Below are positions 13,982 to 49,821 of a DNA stretch of 50,183 bases, one piece after another. Under the pieces are notes generated by a model that was not told the origin of the DNA, ran no database searches, and worked only from the letters and a program-made list of their open reading frames with translations. The DNA is from an uncultured bacterium (GTDB lineage Bacteria; Cyanobacteriota; Vampirovibrionia; Gastranaerophilales; Gastranaerophilaceae). The DNA lies in assembly GCA_948433295.1 (NCBI GenBank), contig CAOJDT010000005.1, positions 1-50,183 of the forward strand. The letters run 5' to 3'. Both the position numbers and the translations under genes were made by a program. Numbering within the stretch: the stretch's first letter is position 1; the number at the start of each line of letters is the position of its first letter.

Positions 13982-14740
13982 ATGAAAAATCAAGTATATT
14001 CAGGCATTTGCGGGGGGGGGGCAACAACTTTAAGCTCCTCTAAAAAGTTTTTCGCATTCTCGTTGGCGGAAGTTTTAATCACCCTAGGCATCATTGGAAT
14101 CGTTGCGGCAATGACATTACCGGCTTTAATTCAGAAGCATCAGAAACAAGAAGCAACTGCTCGATTGAAGAAATTTATTACAACTATGGAGCAGGCGGTT
14201 TTGTTTGCCGAAGCTGAAAATGGCACAAAAGCTTATCAATGGTCAGGGAGGAGTAGGGATTATCAGGATGAACTTAATGATAATCCTCAATTAGTGCATG
14301 ATAAAACGTATGCTTATTGGAATAAGTATTTTGCACCTTATGTAAAAGCTCTTAAAGTTGAAAAGGGGCAGTATATACCGCAGGAAGAGGATGAGGACGT
14401 TAGTAAGAGTACAAGTACAAAAGTTTATTTAACTGATGGTTCAACCCTCGATATGCATTTCGGTAACTGTATAGATTTGAAATTTGATATAAACGGTGAT
14501 AGATTACCTAACGAAAGCGGTAAAGACCAATTTTTATTTTTTATGCCTACAACTTATACCTATTATAACGAAGATGCTTCGGAAATTGCAAGGAATAAGT
14601 CTTTTGCTCCTGCCTATATGCCTATATTAAATACTCGCGATAAGGCTATGGATTATTGTAAAAATAGAGGTCCTCAATTTTGTGCTGCCTTGTTGCAGCA
14701 TGACAACTGGGAATTTAAGGATGACTATCCTCGCTGGTAA
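13982..14740 (+). CDS. Prepilin-like protein with poly-G leader, in frame (ON)
   Basis: The ATG follows GAGGAG by about 8 nt. The leader MKNQVYSGICGGGATTL contains a run of ten G (14012-14021) that keeps the frame open to FFA|FSLAEVLITLGIIG, the prepilin cleavage site and helix, with Ala at -1. Any change of one G either way hits a stop soon after the tract. The mature part carries FDINGDRLPNESGKDQFLFF and ends DNWEFKDDYPRW, like the DING-type paralogues in this window. The tract is in the part expected to be removed by prepilin peptidase. Exact role unknown; pilus, pseudopilus or surface display are possible. Confidence 0.85.
   Translation: MKNQVYSGICGGGATTLSSSKKFFAFSLAEVLITLGIIGIVAAMTLPALIQKHQKQEATARLKKFITTMEQAVLFAEAENGTKAYQWSGRSRDYQDELNDNPQLVHDKTYAYWNKYFAPYVKALKVEKGQYIPQEEDEDVSKSTSTKVYLTDGSTLDMHFGNCIDLKFDINGDRLPNESGKDQFLFFMPTTYTYYNEDASEIARNKSFAPAYMPILNTRDKAMDYCKNRGPQFCAALLQHDNWEFKDDYPRW
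14012..14021 (+). repeat. Poly-G tract, 10 G
   Basis: Ten consecutive G starting 30 nt after the A of the ATG, within the coding leader of the prepilin gene. This tract is in frame. Confidence 0.95.
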
Positions 14741-16934: not shown

Positions 16935-16999
16935 ATTATGGGATTGCATGTGTATAAAATAAATGTTATAATGGAGAGGTACTTATCATTTTTATAAAG

Positions 17000-17030
17000 A
17001 GATTCTTCGGGCGTAGCCCTCAGAATGACA
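17000..17030. repeat. Interspersed palindromic repeat (TGTCATTCTGAG type)
   Basis: On the minus strand it reads TGTCATTCTGAGGGC then TACGCCCGAAGAATCT, an imperfect hairpin of a kind found dispersed in many bacterial genomes. It ends 35 nt before the start of a poly-G prepilin gene. Relatives beginning TGTCATCCTGAA lie inside argS and inside another prepilin gene. Confidence 0.65.
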
Positions 17031-17064
17031 TGATGCATGAATTCAAATAAAACTGGAGGAAATT

Positions 17065-17827
17065 ATGAAAACGCTTGATATGACTGTATTTGCGGGGGGG
17101 GGGGCGGAACTCCTCTAAGGTAAGAGGCAATTTTGAAGAGCCGATATTTGATTCAGGACATCTTAAAAAAGTTGCCTTCACTTTAGCCGAGGTTCTAATC
17201 ACCCTCGGCATAATCGGAATTGTCGCGGCGATGACTATGCCGACGCTGATTCAAAAACATCGAAAAAGTGTTGTGGAAACTTCACTCAAGAAATTTTATA
17301 CAACAGTTAATCAGGCAATAAATTTGTCAATTGTTGAAAATGGTGAAACTAAATACTGGAAATTTCCGCCTGCTAATACTCCTGCAGATATTGAACAGTT
17401 TTATGATAAATATTTTAAAAAATATATAAAAGCCGTCAAAACAGAGCAGTATTCTGCTAATAATGCTTTTGTTGTGTATTTTTCAGATGGATCAGGTGTT
17501 AAAATAAGGAGCACCGGACAAGATTGGTACTATTGCCTAAAAGGGAAGGACCTGAAAAAAGCCTGGTCAACCGGTAAAAACTGTTTTTTATTTGGTTTTT
17601 ATCCTAATTATCCTTCATACGGTAACCCTTATACCGTAAAAAACTTTCGTAACAAAGGTGTAGAACCTTATATTTCCGGTTCAAAGGCTACTGTTGGTAA
17701 AGATGAAGATGGAAATCCTATTATGGAATACGTAACAGAAGAAAATATCCATAAAACGACCAGTTATGCCAAAATGATTCAGTTAAACGGTTGGCGTATT
17801 CCGGAAAATTATCCGATTAAGTTTTAA
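17065..17827 (+). CDS. Prepilin-like protein with poly-G leader, out of frame (OFF) as written
   Basis: The ATG at 17065 has a good GGAGGA 4 nt before it. Translation through the 11-G run (17094-17104) gives MKTLDMTVFAGGGAELL and then a stop. With ten G the frame would continue as MKTLDMTVFAGGGRNSSK and reach KVA|FTLAEVLITLGIIG and the rest of the gene. The only start in the long frame is a TTG at 17090 without ribosome binding sequence. The mature part belongs to a second subfamily: a Cys-containing middle (YCLKGKDLKK, NCFLFGFYP) and the end LNGWRIPENYPIKF, close to the gene at 25785. The 3' end overlaps the next gene by 11 nt, convergently. Confidence 0.8.
17094..17104 (+). repeat. Poly-G tract, 11 G
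   Basis: Eleven G starting 29 nt after the A of the ATG at 17065. Ten would join the start to the prepilin frame; nine or eleven lead to early stops. Confidence 0.95.
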
Positions 17828-19085
17828 TTCTTTCCATCTGTGCGTTAACAATGCCCGGTTCAAGTTCTGAGCCTGTTACAAGTCTTCTGAAAGCGTATTG
17901 CGCTTTCGGGAGACAGTATGCAAGCAAGAAACTGCTTATCCCAACGTTTGCAAGAATGTTAAATGTTTTGACATTTTTAGCTCGTTTTGCAAATTTTTCT
18001 ACGGATTTTGAATCAATTGCTGATTTTGCAAACTTTTCGATATCTTGTTTGAATTCGGCAAGCTTTTTGATATTTACATATTCTCTCGGATCGCGAATTC
18101 CGTTTTTCAGCATTTTGACTTTTTCAAATTTGTTTGCATATTTGACAAATAAGCTGTCAGGATTGTTATCTACAAATTCCAGCAAATCTTTTGCACTGTT
18201 TGATTTTGGAAGTTCCAACGTTCCTTCTTTTATTTTTTTGATAAATTCTTTGTCTGCAAGCATAAGCGGATCAAGTGTTTTTCCTGTAATTTTATTTAAA
18301 ACTTTTTCCAATTGTTTTGGTGCCACAAAGTTCAAATACATCATGCCAGCCATTTTGAATGCCAAATCTTTTGCTTCATTACGGTTACCGTCGGCGCCTT
18401 TTCTTGCTGTAGCAACCCGACCTACAGCATATCCGCCGTCAATTATCATCATTTTTTGAAGCGTTGTCATGTTAGCAATGGTTTCTGAAATATTTCCGGT
18501 AAAAGACAGTTTGAAATCTTTAATTTTTTTCTCAAACGGATTATTTGTTTGTGCTTTTTGTTGGTTTTGTTTTTTTAGTTCTGCAATCTTTTTCGCAGAC
18601 GATGCAAAAATCATTTTAGGCAGTATAAAACCTATAAATGCTGCAGGAATAAGTGTTGCTGCAGCAAATTTTCCTGCAACCATTTTTTTGTAAGTTTCTT
18701 TCTGAGATTTAAAATACATTTTTTTCAAATCGTTAAGGATTTCATCAGAAACTTTTCCGTTAAACTTTTTGAGATTATATTTTAAACCCTGAAATTCTTC
18801 TTCTTTGAAAAGTTTTATATTAATATTAGGGTTAAAACCGGATTTTTTAATAAGTGCATTAGCTATTTTTTCTACAAGCGGAATTCCGCCGAGCCAGACT
18901 GCAGAACCGGCATATTCATCAAGAAATCGTTCTCTGGTTGCGAGCGCTTGTATTTGCTTATCGTTTTCGTTTTCTTTGTAGGTTAAATAAACCTTTGACG
19001 GAACTTCAATTCCGCAATCTCTGACCAGTAGGGGATATATGCTGCTATTATTGCCGATGGCTGATATTATATTTGTAAATGACAT
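17817..19085 (-). CDS. Putative membrane protein of unknown function
   Basis: 422 residues. A hydrophobic segment near residue 160 (LIPAAFIGFILPKMIFA) and another near 390-405 (NVGISSFLLAYCLPKA) may span the membrane; between them lies a lysine-rich region. I do not recognise any domain. The start ATG is preceded by a region with two large hairpins (19099-19161 and 19185-19225) that could act on its mRNA. It may be lineage-specific, since it has the composition of native genes here. Confidence 0.7.
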   Translation of the reverse strand: MSFTNIISAIGNNSSIYPLLVRDCGIEVPSKVYLTYKENENDKQIQALATRERFLDEYAGSAVWLGGIPLVEKIANALIKKSGFNPNINIKLFKEEEFQGLKYNLKKFNGKVSDEILNDLKKMYFKSQKETYKKMVAGKFAAATLIPAAFIGFILPKMIFASSAKKIAELKKQNQQKAQTNNPFEKKIKDFKLSFTGNISETIANMTTLQKMMIIDGGYAVGRVATARKGADGNRNEAKDLAFKMAGMMYLNFVAPKQLEKVLNKITGKTLDPLMLADKEFIKKIKEGTLELPKSNSAKDLLEFVDNNPDSLFVKYANKFEKVKMLKNGIRDPREYVNIKKLAEFKQDIEKFAKSAIDSKSVEKFAKRAKNVKTFNILANVGISSFLLAYCLPKAQYAFRRLVTGSELEPGIVNAQMERIKT

Positions 19086-21146: not shown

Positions 21147-21854
21147 TTAAAGTTTATTAAAATAATCTTTTTTAGTCATTGCTTTGTAAGTGCATGCGAT
21201 TCCGTTCAATCTCTCAATAGACGTTTTTGAACAATATTTGCTTAAATCAGTGTAATATGTTCCTTCTGCACCCATTGGAATTAATTTACCACTGTCATTC
21301 ATTATTTGAAATGTAAACAGGTCTTTTCCCCAGGCATTTGGTTTTTTGTTTACTCCGTTGACATCGACAGTCAGAAAGAAATTTCCTGTGCCTGTGTTTG
21401 AGCCTTTGTCATCTTCAATCATCAGGATAATACCGTCATTTAAAATATATTGACCGTCATCAAAAAAATATGCAGGCGCATATTTAGTTTGATTAAAGTT
21501 TTTATAAACTTTAGAAATGTAGGTTTCATCGCCTTCGCTAGTTCTTCCGAAGCATGACTCGTAACCGCAATCTTTAGTAATTTTTAAATATTTTTTATAA
21601 TTTGTTGTAAATTGTCTATTTCCGTAATTCTCACGTTTTGCAGGGTAACCTTGTTCTGCTTCAAGTCTTTGGAGTGCCTGAGTCAAAATTGAATATGATT
21701 TTAATAGAGCTGTTCTGTTTTCTGCACCGTTGATTTTGTTTATTAGAGATGGCAACGTCATAGCAGCTATAGCCCCGATAATTCCAAGTGTTATTAATAC
21801 TTCTGCCAGCGTAAAGCCGAGTTTTTCGGTGTAATTTCTTTTTGTGTTTTTCAT
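21147..21854 (-). CDS. Prepilin-like protein, ordinary leader
   Basis: The ATG at 21854 follows AAGGAGG by about 4 nt, giving the leader MKNTKRNYTEKLG|FTLAEV with Gly at -1; an upstream in-frame codon at 21869 lacks a site. No poly-G tract is present, unlike four of its paralogues. The mature part has a DVNG-x-NKKPNAWGKDLF motif and Cys pairs (DCGYESCF), as in the other DING-type proteins. It ends CTYKAMTKKDYFNKL. The role in pilus or secretion assembly is inferred only from the N-terminus. Confidence 0.88.
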   Translation of the reverse strand: MKNTKRNYTEKLGFTLAEVLITLGIIGAIAAMTLPSLINKINGAENRTALLKSYSILTQALQRLEAEQGYPAKRENYGNRQFTTNYKKYLKITKDCGYESCFGRTSEGDETYISKVYKNFNQTKYAPAYFFDDGQYILNDGIILMIEDDKGSNTGTGNFFLTVDVNGVNKKPNAWGKDLFTFQIMNDSGKLIPMGAEGTYYTDLSKYCSKTSIERLNGIACTYKAMTKKDYFNKL

Positions 21855-25784: not shown

Positions 25785-26676
25785 TTAAAATTTCAGCGGA
25801 TAGTCGTCAGGTATACGCCAGCCGTTAAGCTGAATTATTTTTGCGTAACATTTTTGAGTATAAAGGTCTTTTTCTGTTGTATAAAGAAGTTTTCCATTCT
25901 CGTCTTTTAAGTCTTTGCCGTCATCACCTTTGGCAACAGTATTCACGTAGGGTTCTATTCCTTTATTAATAAAATTTTTACCGGAATAATACTTTTCTTC
26001 ACCATTTGTCATTACGGGATAAAAGCCAAAGCTGAAACAACGCGTACCGTTGGTTCCGGTTTTAGTTAAATCTTTCGCATTTATGCAATAGCTCCAATCA
26101 TGCCCATGATGATATATCATTGCTCCCGAGCCGTCAGAAAAATATATGGCAAATCTTAACTTTCCATTTGCATTAGTAATTTTGTCTGTTTTTAAAACTT
26201 TGACATATTTTTTCAAGTATTTGTTAAAAAAAGCTTCTATATCATTGGCATTATCCGCGTCGCCGAAAGTCCAGTATTTAGTCTCTCCGTTTTCAACAAC
26301 TGACAATTTAATCGCCTGATTCATATTGGTGTAAAACTTTTTTAAAGATGTTTCGACAACACTGCGTCTGTGTTTCTGAATCAGTGTCGGCAAAGTCATA
26401 GCAGCTACAATTCCTATTATGCCAAGAGTGATAAGGACTTCTGCTAAGGTAAAAGCTTGTCCGCGCTCAGGCACTTCAGGATGACATAATTGTTCATTCT
26501 CTTGTGCGTTTTTTAATTTCAAAAAGACATTTGTCTTCAAAAACGCTTTCAAATTTTTCGTGTGTTTTGTAATTATTGTGCAAAGTGTTTTGTCAAAAAT
26601 CGCTCCAGAGTAGAGCTGCGGCTCAGCCGTGCCCCCCCCCCCCTGTCGGGAATCCTTTCATAGTCTGTGTTTTCAT
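25785..26676 (-). CDS. Prepilin-like protein with poly-G leader, out of frame (OFF) as written
   Basis: The ATG at 26676 follows AAGGAG. With 12 G the product is MKTQTMKGFPTGGGGHG and a stop. With 11 G the frame stays open through about 60 more codons to GQA|FTLAEVLITLGIIG. The only starts in the long frame, such as the TTG at 26552, have no ribosome binding site. The mature part is a close relative of the gene at 17065 (KYWTFGDAD, YCINAKDLTK, LNGWRIPDDYPLKF). The leader just before the cleavage site contains CHPEVPERG, encoded by an interspersed repeat. Ala is at -1. Phase variation is the simplest reading; a length error in the tract is the alternative. Confidence 0.8.
26466..26486 (-). repeat. 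Interspersed repeat (TGTCATCCTGAA) inside prepilin leader
   Basis: The coding strand reads TGTCATCCTGAAGTGCCTGA, giving CHPEVPE just before the prepilin cleavage site. It is a shorter relative of the palindromic repeat in argS. Confidence 0.55.
26632..26643 (-). repeat. Poly-G tract on minus strand, 12 G
   Basis: Twelve C on the plus strand, starting 33 nt into the prepilin frame of the ATG at 26676. Eleven would restore the frame; ten or twelve do not. Confidence 0.95.
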
Positions 26677-28528: not shown

Positions 28529-29261
28529 TTATTTGTACAGATATTTCATATCTCCGTGTTGAAGAATGTATGAAGCATAATTCCAGCCTGAATCTGAGGC
28601 CTCATCTCCTTTATGAGGCATAACTCTGTTTTTAAGCAGAACAAAGCTAAAAACATCTTTGCCTATTACATTGGGTGAATTTTTTCCGTTTATGTCAAGC
28701 CAAATTAAACCACATACATTTTGGTATCCGCCATCTGTTACGGTGCAATTTGTTCCGCTTGTCCTAAGCCACAGGTAACTCCCGTCAGCAAGTATCATTT
28801 TGTAATATTGAGTTGATTGGTCATAACTATTCCAAAGTGTACCATTAAATAATTTATAGTTTTGAGGTGCGATGCAGCCGCTTTCCGAACCGCAATCTTT
28901 AGAGATTTTCAGATAAGGTTTTAAATATACGGCAAGTTTATCTGCTTTGCCAAAGTCTTCATCTTCCTCTTTTTCGCTAAGAAAATTCCATTCGTCTACA
29001 TAACCGTTATCTTTAATTGCCATTAAAAGAGCCTGATTAATCACAGAATAAAATTTTTTAACCTTTGTTACGGTTACTCTTTCCTCATTTTTTTGTATCA
29101 ATGTCGGCAGTGTCATAGCTGCAACCACTCCTATAATACCCAGAGTAATCAAAACCTCTGCCAAGGTAAATGCAGGAATTGATTTGCGCTTAATGCTTGT
29201 CAGGAGGTTATCCGAGCCCCCCCCCCCCTATCGGGAATTCAATCATAGTCTTGTTTTTCAC
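28529..29261 (-). CDS. Prepilin-like protein with poly-G leader, out of frame (OFF) as written
   Basis: The GTG at 29261 follows TGGAGGA by 7 nt. With 12 G it yields MKNKTMIEFPIGGGGLG and a stop. With 11 G it continues as GGGGSDNLLTSIKRKS to IPA|FTLAEVLITLGIIG. The only long-frame start (TTG at 29164, within FTLAEV) would remove the leader and cleavage site, so it cannot give a normal prepilin. The mature part carries LDINGKNSPNVIGKDVFSF and a Cys pair (DCGSESGC), so it is DING-type. The leader up to the tract is closely similar to that of the gene at 26676. Confidence 0.82.
29217..29228 (-). repeat. Poly-G tract on minus strand, 12 G
   Basis: Twelve C on the plus strand, starting 33 nt into the frame of the GTG at 29261. 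Eleven would restore the prepilin frame. Confidence 0.95.
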
Positions 29262-44685: not shown

Positions 44686-45409
44686 GTTGTTGATTGCAGT
44701 ATTTTTTACCGTCCCAACTCAGGTCGTTGCAGTGAAGATATTCCATGTTTTCGTTATAAAGAACCCATGCCGCACAGCCAAAACCCGCTTTTTTAATACA
44801 TTTTTCCTTAAAAAATTCGTTTCCGTATTTAGCGGGTGCGCCCGAGGGGATTATAGAGTTTTTAAACAGATAGAAATAGAAAAAGTCGATTCCGACTTTA
44901 TTTGGAGGTTTTGAACCGTTAATATCAACGTAGATTTGTCCGAAATCGCTGTATGAACCCGCTGAAGATGTATTAAACATTACTATTGTTCCGTCTGTAA
45001 GAATTAATGCCGAGCGGTCGGGCAGATTATTCCAGTTGACGTAATTTGAACCGTCAATGTTTTTGTATGTAATATTAGGGTAGCAACCTCTGCCGTTTTC
45101 ACAAATTTTAAGCGTTTTTAAATGCGGTGCAATTTTGTTTAATAATACTTTTTCGCCTCCGTCTCCGGCTGTCATTGAAATTCCCCAATCTTCAATGGAG
45201 CCTTCTTGCGATAAGGCTTTCAAAAATGCTTGTTGTAAAACAGAATACGTTTTTTTCAGTTGTTGCGTTCTTGTTTTTTCGTTTAACTTAGGCACAACAG
45301 TCTGTATAGTCATTGATGCAATTATTCCGATAATTGCAAGTGTAATCAGGGTTTCTGTCAGGGTAAATGCGGTTTTCTTAGAACCTGAAATCTCTTTCGC
45401 CTTTTTCAA
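44609..45409 (-). CDS. Prepilin-like protein overlapping hydG
   Basis: The start lies inside the end of hydG. A TTG at 45409 (MKKAKEISGSKKTA|FTLTETLITLAIIG) gives a 14-residue leader and has GAGG upstream; a TTG at 45427 is the alternative. It is likely translated by coupling with hydG. Ala is at -1 and Glu at +5. The mature part carries VDINGSKPPNKVGIDFFYF and Cys pairs (CENGRGCY, CIKKAGFGC), so it is DING-type, but it is the most divergent paralogue and has no poly-G tract. Its 3' end overlaps the formyltransferase gene by 77 nt, convergently. Confidence 0.8.
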   Translation of the reverse strand: MKKAKEISGSKKTAFTLTETLITLAIIGIIASMTIQTVVPKLNEKTRTQQLKKTYSVLQQAFLKALSQEGSIEDWGISMTAGDGGEKVLLNKIAPHLKTLKICENGRGCYPNITYKNIDGSNYVNWNNLPDRSALILTDGTIVMFNTSSAGSYSDFGQIYVDINGSKPPNKVGIDFFYFYLFKNSIIPSGAPAKYGNEFFKEKCIKKAGFGCAAWVLYNENMEYLHCNDLSWDGKKYCNQQPTRVSSEQLPILSAKDIRKVAIRSF

Positions 45410-49106: not shown

Positions 49107-49821
49107 ATGACTAATCAAGTGGTAACCCCGATTTCGGGGGGGGGGGGCGTCGTTGTTCTTTGAATTTAAGTACTTAAAAAGCCGCTTTAAAGTCTTTAGA
49201 AAAAAATGCAAACAGTTGATAGATCAAAATAGAAAGACTCCGTATCAGTTTCCTATTATTATGACAGATAGTGAAAAGATGTTTTTTAAAGAAAATCTTG
49301 CAGGGGTTTCAAATTATTTGGAATTCGGCTCGGGGGGTTCTACGTTTCTGACTTTGTTGAACGGAAATATTAAACGCCTTGTTTCTGTGGAATCGGATGC
49401 AGGATGGTTGGATTATCTCAGAAAATGGCGTCTCATTTCTGATAATGAAAATAAAACCTTATTTTTTAATTCTGTATATATTGGAAAAGTGGGAGAATGG
49501 GGCGTTCCGCAAGAAGAAGATAAAAAAGAACTGTTTCCGAATTATTCTGCTGATGTGTTTAATACTTATAAAGATAATGATTTAATCTTTATTGACGGAC
49601 GTTTTCGAGTTGCTTGTGCTTTGCAGGCAGTTCTTAATTCTAGCCAGGGTACTAAGATTTTAATACATGACTATACTGACCGACCAGAATATCACTGTAT
49701 AGAGACTTTTTTAGATGTTGTTAAAACAGTTGATACTATGGTTTTATTTAAAATAAAAGATAATATAAATATTGATGATGTCAAAGATTTGTACGATGAA
49801 TATAAATATAATTCTAATTAA
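49107..49821 (+). CDS. SAM-methyltransferase-like protein with poly-G leader, out of frame (OFF) as written
   Basis: The ATG at 49107 follows TTGGAGGA. With 12 G it gives MTNQVVTPISGGGGVVVL and a stop. With 11 G it continues as GGGASLFFEFKYLKSR into the full frame. A TTG at 49153 is the first start in the long frame but has no ribosome binding site. The body has a class I methyltransferase-like pattern: YLEFGSGGSTFL (motif I), LVSVESDAGWLDYLRKW, LIFIDGRFRVACAL and ILIHDYTDRPEYHC. The substrate is unknown; surface glycan or protein modification would fit a switchable gene. About 230 residues when in frame. Confidence 0.75.
49136..49147 (+). repeat. Poly-G tract, 12 G
   Basis: Twelve G starting 29 nt after the A of the ATG at 49107. 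Eleven would join the start to the long frame; ten or twelve lead to early stops. Confidence 0.95.

Follow-up and report, generated by a model that had tools for sequence, protein, structure and literature searches.

Candidate default-OFF poly-G phase variation in the predicted cleavable leaders of a prepilin repertoire in Gastranaerophilaceae

In gonococci, the tip adhesin PilC has a signal peptide of the conventional type. Homo-guanine tracts lie in the signal-peptide region of gonococcal pilC and CTCTT repeats in the leader region of opa (PMC5354566), and Campylobacter jejuni carries 18–39 phase-variable genes per genome, with 81 in one strain (PMC6321876). The class III leader, for its part, lies on the cytoplasmic side of the membrane, has no fixed length and has Gly or Ala as its last residue (PMC10191384). 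We focus here on an uncultured bacterium of the family Gastranaerophilaceae in which long G tracts lie in prepilin leaders of this class. We put at about three chances in four the reading that these are default-OFF prepilins, phase-variable through slipped-strand changes in a homopolymer, with the switch placed in a cytoplasmic, cleavable leader.

The window, by which we mean the whole stretch of 50,183 nucleotides analysed, corresponds to contig C5 of genome G000, which comprises 131 contigs and 1.96 Mb. Its G+C content is 36%, and matches to G8 number 22 against 0.16 expected from shuffles. Five G tracts of 10–12 G each are present; four lie in prepilin genes and the fifth precedes a methyltransferase-like gene. 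The features are as follows:

13982..14740, + strand: prepilin gene 1, in frame (ON) as assembled; ATG at 13982, leader 13982–14056 (25 aa), F+1 at 14057, N_methyl match
14012..14021, + strand: G10 tract of prepilin gene 1, ON at 7, 10 or 13 G
17065..17827, + strand: prepilin gene 2, off by +1; ATG at 17065, F+1 at 17177, ON leader 37 aa, DUF6613 match (5.6e-18)
17116–17118, + strand: stop that ends the OFF peptide of prepilin gene 2, MKTLDMTVFAGGGAELL
17094..17104, + strand: G11 tract of prepilin gene 2, ON at 10 or 13 G
25785..26676, − strand: prepilin gene 3, off by +1; ATG at 26676, F+1 at 26453, ON leader 74 aa, OFF peptide MKTQTMKGFPTGGGGHG, DUF6613 (1.6e-19) and N_methyl (1.6e-4) matches
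26632..26643, − strand: G12 tract of prepilin gene 3, ON at 11 or 14 G
28529..29261, − strand: prepilin gene 4, off by +1; GTG start at 29261, F+1 at 29170, ON leader 30 aa, OFF peptide VKNKTMIEFPIGGGGLG, N_methyl match
29217..29228, − strand: G12 tract of prepilin gene 4, ON at 11 or 14 G
49107..49821, + strand: non-prepilin gene with the leader and tract layout of the prepilins, off by +1; G12 at 49136–49147, methyltransferase-like (3cvo_A, E=7.6e-20)

All four prepilin tracts lie between an SD-led start codon and a predicted prepilin-peptidase site, A^F[ST]LAEVLITLGIIG (A^F[ST]LAEV), the motif at which prepilins are cleaved and methylated, which in these four genes is reached from the tract in one frame. 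As assembled, only the gene with the tract at 14012 (G10) is in frame; genes 2–4 are one base too long and encode 17-residue peptides. The initial annotation had placed a tract in the leader of "all four prepilins", which is right for the four tract-bearing genes (G10–G12), but the window holds seven prepilin genes, and the other three (Pfam N_methyl at 120–191 on the + strand and at 21756–21818 and 45308–45382 on the − strand) show no tract in the assembled sequence. The tract does code for glycines, as had been proposed, G runs giving glycine in every frame. The lengths offered as restoring the frame, 10 or 13 G, apply to the tracts at 14012 and 17094, but those at 26632 and 29217 need 11 or 14. 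The ON leaders of 25, 37, 30 and 74 residues come close to the 24–80 that had been given, and a change that keeps the frame would add or remove a single leader glycine and leave the predicted mature pilin unchanged, in agreement with the original proposal.

The methyltransferase-like gene at 49107–49821 is without the prepilin cleavage motif, so the annotation's argument for neutrality does not apply there. Just upstream of prepilin gene 2, at 16995–17040, lies an apparent dispersed repeat (TTCTTCGGGCGTAGCCCTCAGAATGACA). Close homologues of the 14012 prepilin occur in Candidatus Gastranaerophilales MAGs. A low-confidence AlphaFold2 model of this prepilin, built from four sequences, has residues 1–26 at pLDDT <50 and a helix at 28–85, as expected for a prepilin; comparison of the model with the PDB gave no match at E <= 0.001 and, at a mean pLDDT of 67.7, is uninformative.

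Genome G000 as a whole has 141 Pfam N_methyl matches and 116 maximal tracts of G>=9. The contigs that we analysed, those bearing listed prepilins or tracts and some further small ones, contain 133 prepilin motifs, 55 with a tract in an open leader, 42 tract-free and 36 cut by contig ends. Of 55 analysable tracts in G000, 51 lead into a prepilin. In the 52 tract genes that could be analysed fully, the ON leader has 17–165 residues (median 59), and among the tract-free prepilins 32/42 have an ordinary leader of <=12 residues with an SD site. The tract-bearing leaders are long for prepilins, as the annotation had it, even against most tract-free ones of G000. In each tract-bearing prepilin that we analysed, the tract comes before the cleavage site, which the annotation had stated for the four in the window. 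The residue before F+1 is Ala in 29 of the 52 and Gly in 23, Glu is present at +5 and a hydrophobic stretch follows; by motif, then, these are class III prepilin leaders, and they fall outside the conventional Sec/signal peptidase I definition. A single prepilin peptidase gene, intact, is found in G000 (one PF01478 match), and its ORF has both catalytic Asp residues (VTD...GEGD) as well as the CPKC/CYFC pairs of the methylase domain.

The best homologues elsewhere (L221 and L222, 66% and 62% identical in alignment) have leaders of only 4 to 5 residues, MKGRA^F and MKNKG^F, and align from F+1 onward, directly at FTLAEV. The tract leader is therefore best read as an addition placed before an old gene. 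Behind the tract, four genes still have an SD and an ATG placed four codons upstream of F+1 (MKKA^FTLAEV), and an SD-led ATG of any kind stands behind the tract in 7/52 genes of G000, which may be partly independent of the tract. Many G000 contigs break at tract leaders, and several end in runs of about 50 G (among them L104 at 17983–18034, L131, L155 and L166), which are probably a sequencing artefact; the repertoire counts are consequently lower bounds.

Unrelated pilins have leader DNA in common. Leader identity and mature-pilin identity correlate at about −0.01, leaders that are >85% identical stand before pilins that are 27% identical at the median, and bases in shared 20-mers make up 53% of the post-tract leader against 2% of the mature part. 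These comparisons suggest spread or conversion of the removable leader among unrelated pilins, along with uptake of dispersed repeats that lengthen it. Short repeats common to several genes lie within many long leaders. A hairpin behind the tract (e.g. CTGACTGAGTCAG) is found in several G000 leaders only and belongs to the shared leader sequence. Behind many tracts, at 10–20 nt, there is also a CTCCT-like sequence complementary to the SD (13982–14100 and other contigs), with a perfect 8 bp match at 14012. Across the tract, SD and anti-SD of the same gene pair only marginally better than those of different genes do (13/200 and 6/200 permutations, weak statistics), and no such own-gene excess was found in G033, G058 or G015.

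If tract length drifted freely, each frame would be expected to hold about one third of the genes. In G000, 45/52 genes, all keeping an open prepilin frame of at least 100 codons as a condition of the count, are off by +1, five are ON and two are off by +2. The congener G007 has 18/21 off by +1 and none ON, and G033, from another genus (g22), has 17/20 off by −1 and three ON. Such dominance of one OFF phase in three genomes argues against simple random slippage. The phase is shared by leader types with 9, 11 and 12 Gs, so what is locked is the frame and not the length. ON genes have the usual OFF length minus one in G000 and plus one in G033. All three phases are present in G130 (ON 2, off1 8, off2 6) and G068 (2, 3 and 4), which belong to other genera.

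A stop within <=4 codons behind the tract, in the OFF frame in which the gene is read as assembled, occurs in 36/52 genes of G000 against 13.9 in codon-shuffled sequence, in 20/21 of G007 against 5.5 and in 17/20 of G033 against 5.7, and in each of the three 0/500 shuffles reached the observed count; the leader copies are not independent, however, so that these shuffle results, like the phase counts, overstate the evidence and exact probabilities come out too small. No clear excess of stops was seen in the third frame behind the tract in G000, G007 or G033. In G007 the stops at this position are TAG (9), TGA (4) and TAA (3), a change of codon identity which indicates that the stop is kept and not the sequence. 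In G015, the majority phase as assembled differs from the phase in which stops are enriched. The proposal that the tract forms a neutral on/off switch is borne out in part, but three of the four window genes are OFF as assembled, and genome-wide nearly all copies share an OFF phase with a stop behind the tract, which simple neutral switching does not predict. Both neutrality of the switch and cleavage of the leader are things that we infer, the latter from the motif and the presence of the peptidase.

As to tract length itself, copies in the same context have 10/11 and 11/11/12 G in G000, 9/10/11/11 in G015 and 9/12 and 11/12 in G068, where two neighbouring, near-identical leaders have G12 and G10; these lengths are assembly consensus calls from one genome per species. 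Differences of this kind favour real slippage. A comparison of orthologous tracts between G000 and G007 yielded no clear one-to-one pairs, the pilins being too diverged. Loss of MutS was considered as a cause of tract instability and rejected, two MutS-family genes being present.

We propose the following sequence of events. Translation would begin at the SD-led ATG, usually about 29–36 nt before the G9–G13 tract, and with a tract of ON length the ribosome would continue into the prepilin frame. PilD should then cleave at A/G^F[ST]LAEV, and the leader should be lost together with its glycines, so that any ON length (n, n+3) would give an identical mature pilin. With a tract that is one base off, the ribosome would in most genes reach the stop just behind the tract, and no pilin would be made. 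In G000 and G007, the usual state is one G too many, which would leave most of the tract-bearing repertoire OFF, with single genes turned ON by losing one G; in G033, the usual state is instead one G too few. As parts of this scheme we infer that tract lengths vary within a population, that genes in the ON state are expressed and that long leaders, of 25–165 residues, are substrates for PilD. Selection for a mostly silent repertoire, one step away from ON, may have kept the single OFF length. A stronger version, in which the locked phase is itself functional, appears doubtful to us, if worth considering: the tract-bearing prepilins of each lineage would be held at one out-of-frame length with a guarding stop and be expressed only through slippage at the G run (of DNA in a set direction, of RNA or of the ribosome), a "default-off" code for dozens of pilins.

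The constancy of the offset within G000, G007 and G033 could also be explained by programmed recoding, in which the assembled length is the normal one, the prepilin is made from it when RNA polymerase slips, or the ribosome shifts frame, at the G run, and the stop limits the unshifted product. Conservation of a stop 1–3 codons behind the tract while its codon identity changes would fit such a mechanism, as would the 21/52, 18/21 and 16/20 genes of the three genomes in which no start codon separates the tract from the cleavage site. Recoding would, on the other hand, call for a constant offset and no in-frame copies, and we find in-frame copies in six of the seven genomes, an offset of opposite sign in G033, both signs within G130 and within G068, and copies in the same context that differ in tract length; we thus regard it as unlikely. 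The same lack of start codons weighs differently on the idea that the tract is part of a small ORF further upstream and that the prepilin starts at its own codon behind it, which would make the frame irrelevant. The four genes with an SD and ATG before MKKA^FTLAEV, and the SD-led ATG in 7/52 more generally, are what one would expect of an internal start, but no in-frame ATG, GTG or TTG lies between tract and cleavage site in those 21/52 genes, which include the ones with tracts at 14012, 17094 and 29217, nor in 18/21 and 16/20 in G007 and G033, so that only a few genes could be served and the idea is highly improbable as a general account.

It is slightly less probable still that the tracts are truly all in frame and merely shifted by homopolymer errors in sequencing or assembly. 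The short-read style of the assembly, the contig ends at tracts and the G50 runs at those ends invite this explanation, but the shift is +1 in G000 and G007 and −1 in G033, leader types with 9, 11 and 12 Gs share one phase, and the stops are enriched in the very frame that is read at the assembled length, which errors cannot create. Slipped-strand variation of default-OFF prepilins remains our preferred reading, as the simplest account.

Among relatives, the pattern of ATGA, 20–42 nt and G9 is found in 86/146 sampled genomes of the family and in 33/41 genera, some of the matches being chance or non-prepilin elements. Genomes of the class outside the family have 0–3 matches, like the reversed control, whereas family genomes have up to 75 with a control of <=5; the arrangement is confined to one family within the class as sampled. 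In G130 (L375–L394), Ser precedes F+1 in 14/16 tract-bearing prepilins, which is unusual for substrates of prepilin peptidase. In G063 and G025, the G tracts stand behind repeated elements that carry different leaders (ATGAGGCTGAAACCCGCATGAATAGTGCATTTGC-G12 and ATGAAATGGCAGATGTAGAGATTAAAAACGGACAAGC-G10), with no prepilin downstream where this was checked (G063), and they may be another kind of repeat; the G063 tracts were excluded.

If our reading is correct, a poorly studied family of gut bacteria, non-photosynthetic relatives of cyanobacteria, has one of the larger switching repertoires of surface structures known, built by adding a removable and freely mutable leader. There may be almost no constraint on the length or sequence of a leader that is discarded in the cytoplasm, and this would explain both leaders of up to 165 residues and the leader pieces shared by unrelated pilins. 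The locked OFF phase and its guarding stop also open to direct testing the idea that contingency loci can have a default state under selection. Our literature search returned nothing that joins phase variation and Gastranaerophilales and, with Melainabacteria, only flagellin work mentioning both.

PilE1 and PilE2 of Streptococcus sanguinis are not known to carry a tract. They resemble the prepilins described here in having a class III signal peptide and in being processed by PilD (PMC5389465, PMC10191384), but there a leader of 18 aa counts as very long (PMC5389465), against 17–165 aa here. Campylobacter contingency loci are similar in that many poly-G tracts lie within ORFs, mostly of 9–10 G in a draft-genome set (PMC6321876). 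They affect other classes of gene (pili are absent from the text of PMC6321876), their tracts are not tied to a cleaved leader, and the proportion ON in the draft set is close to that of neutral drift (PMC6321876), unlike the locked phase seen here. Neisseria opa likewise forms a multigene surface repertoire with a leader-located switch for each gene; it differs in having a pentamer repeat, about 11 genes and outer-membrane proteins as products, and no locked OFF phase is mentioned in the passages considered from PMC5354566. The closest parallel is N. gonorrhoeae pilC, where poly-G in the removed part of a pilus protein turns the gene ON or OFF by frame shift (PMC5354566); in our genes removal would follow from the position of the tract. 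There are two pilC genes as against dozens of genes here, and the targets here are prepilins, with class III leaders that would stay in the cytoplasm. Given the leader-located repeats of opa and pilC, the principle is not new; what appear to be new, against the literature searched, are the switching of prepilins, the placement of the switch in a leader that would not pass through the membrane, the number of such genes per genome, the locked phase with its guarding stops and the lineage.
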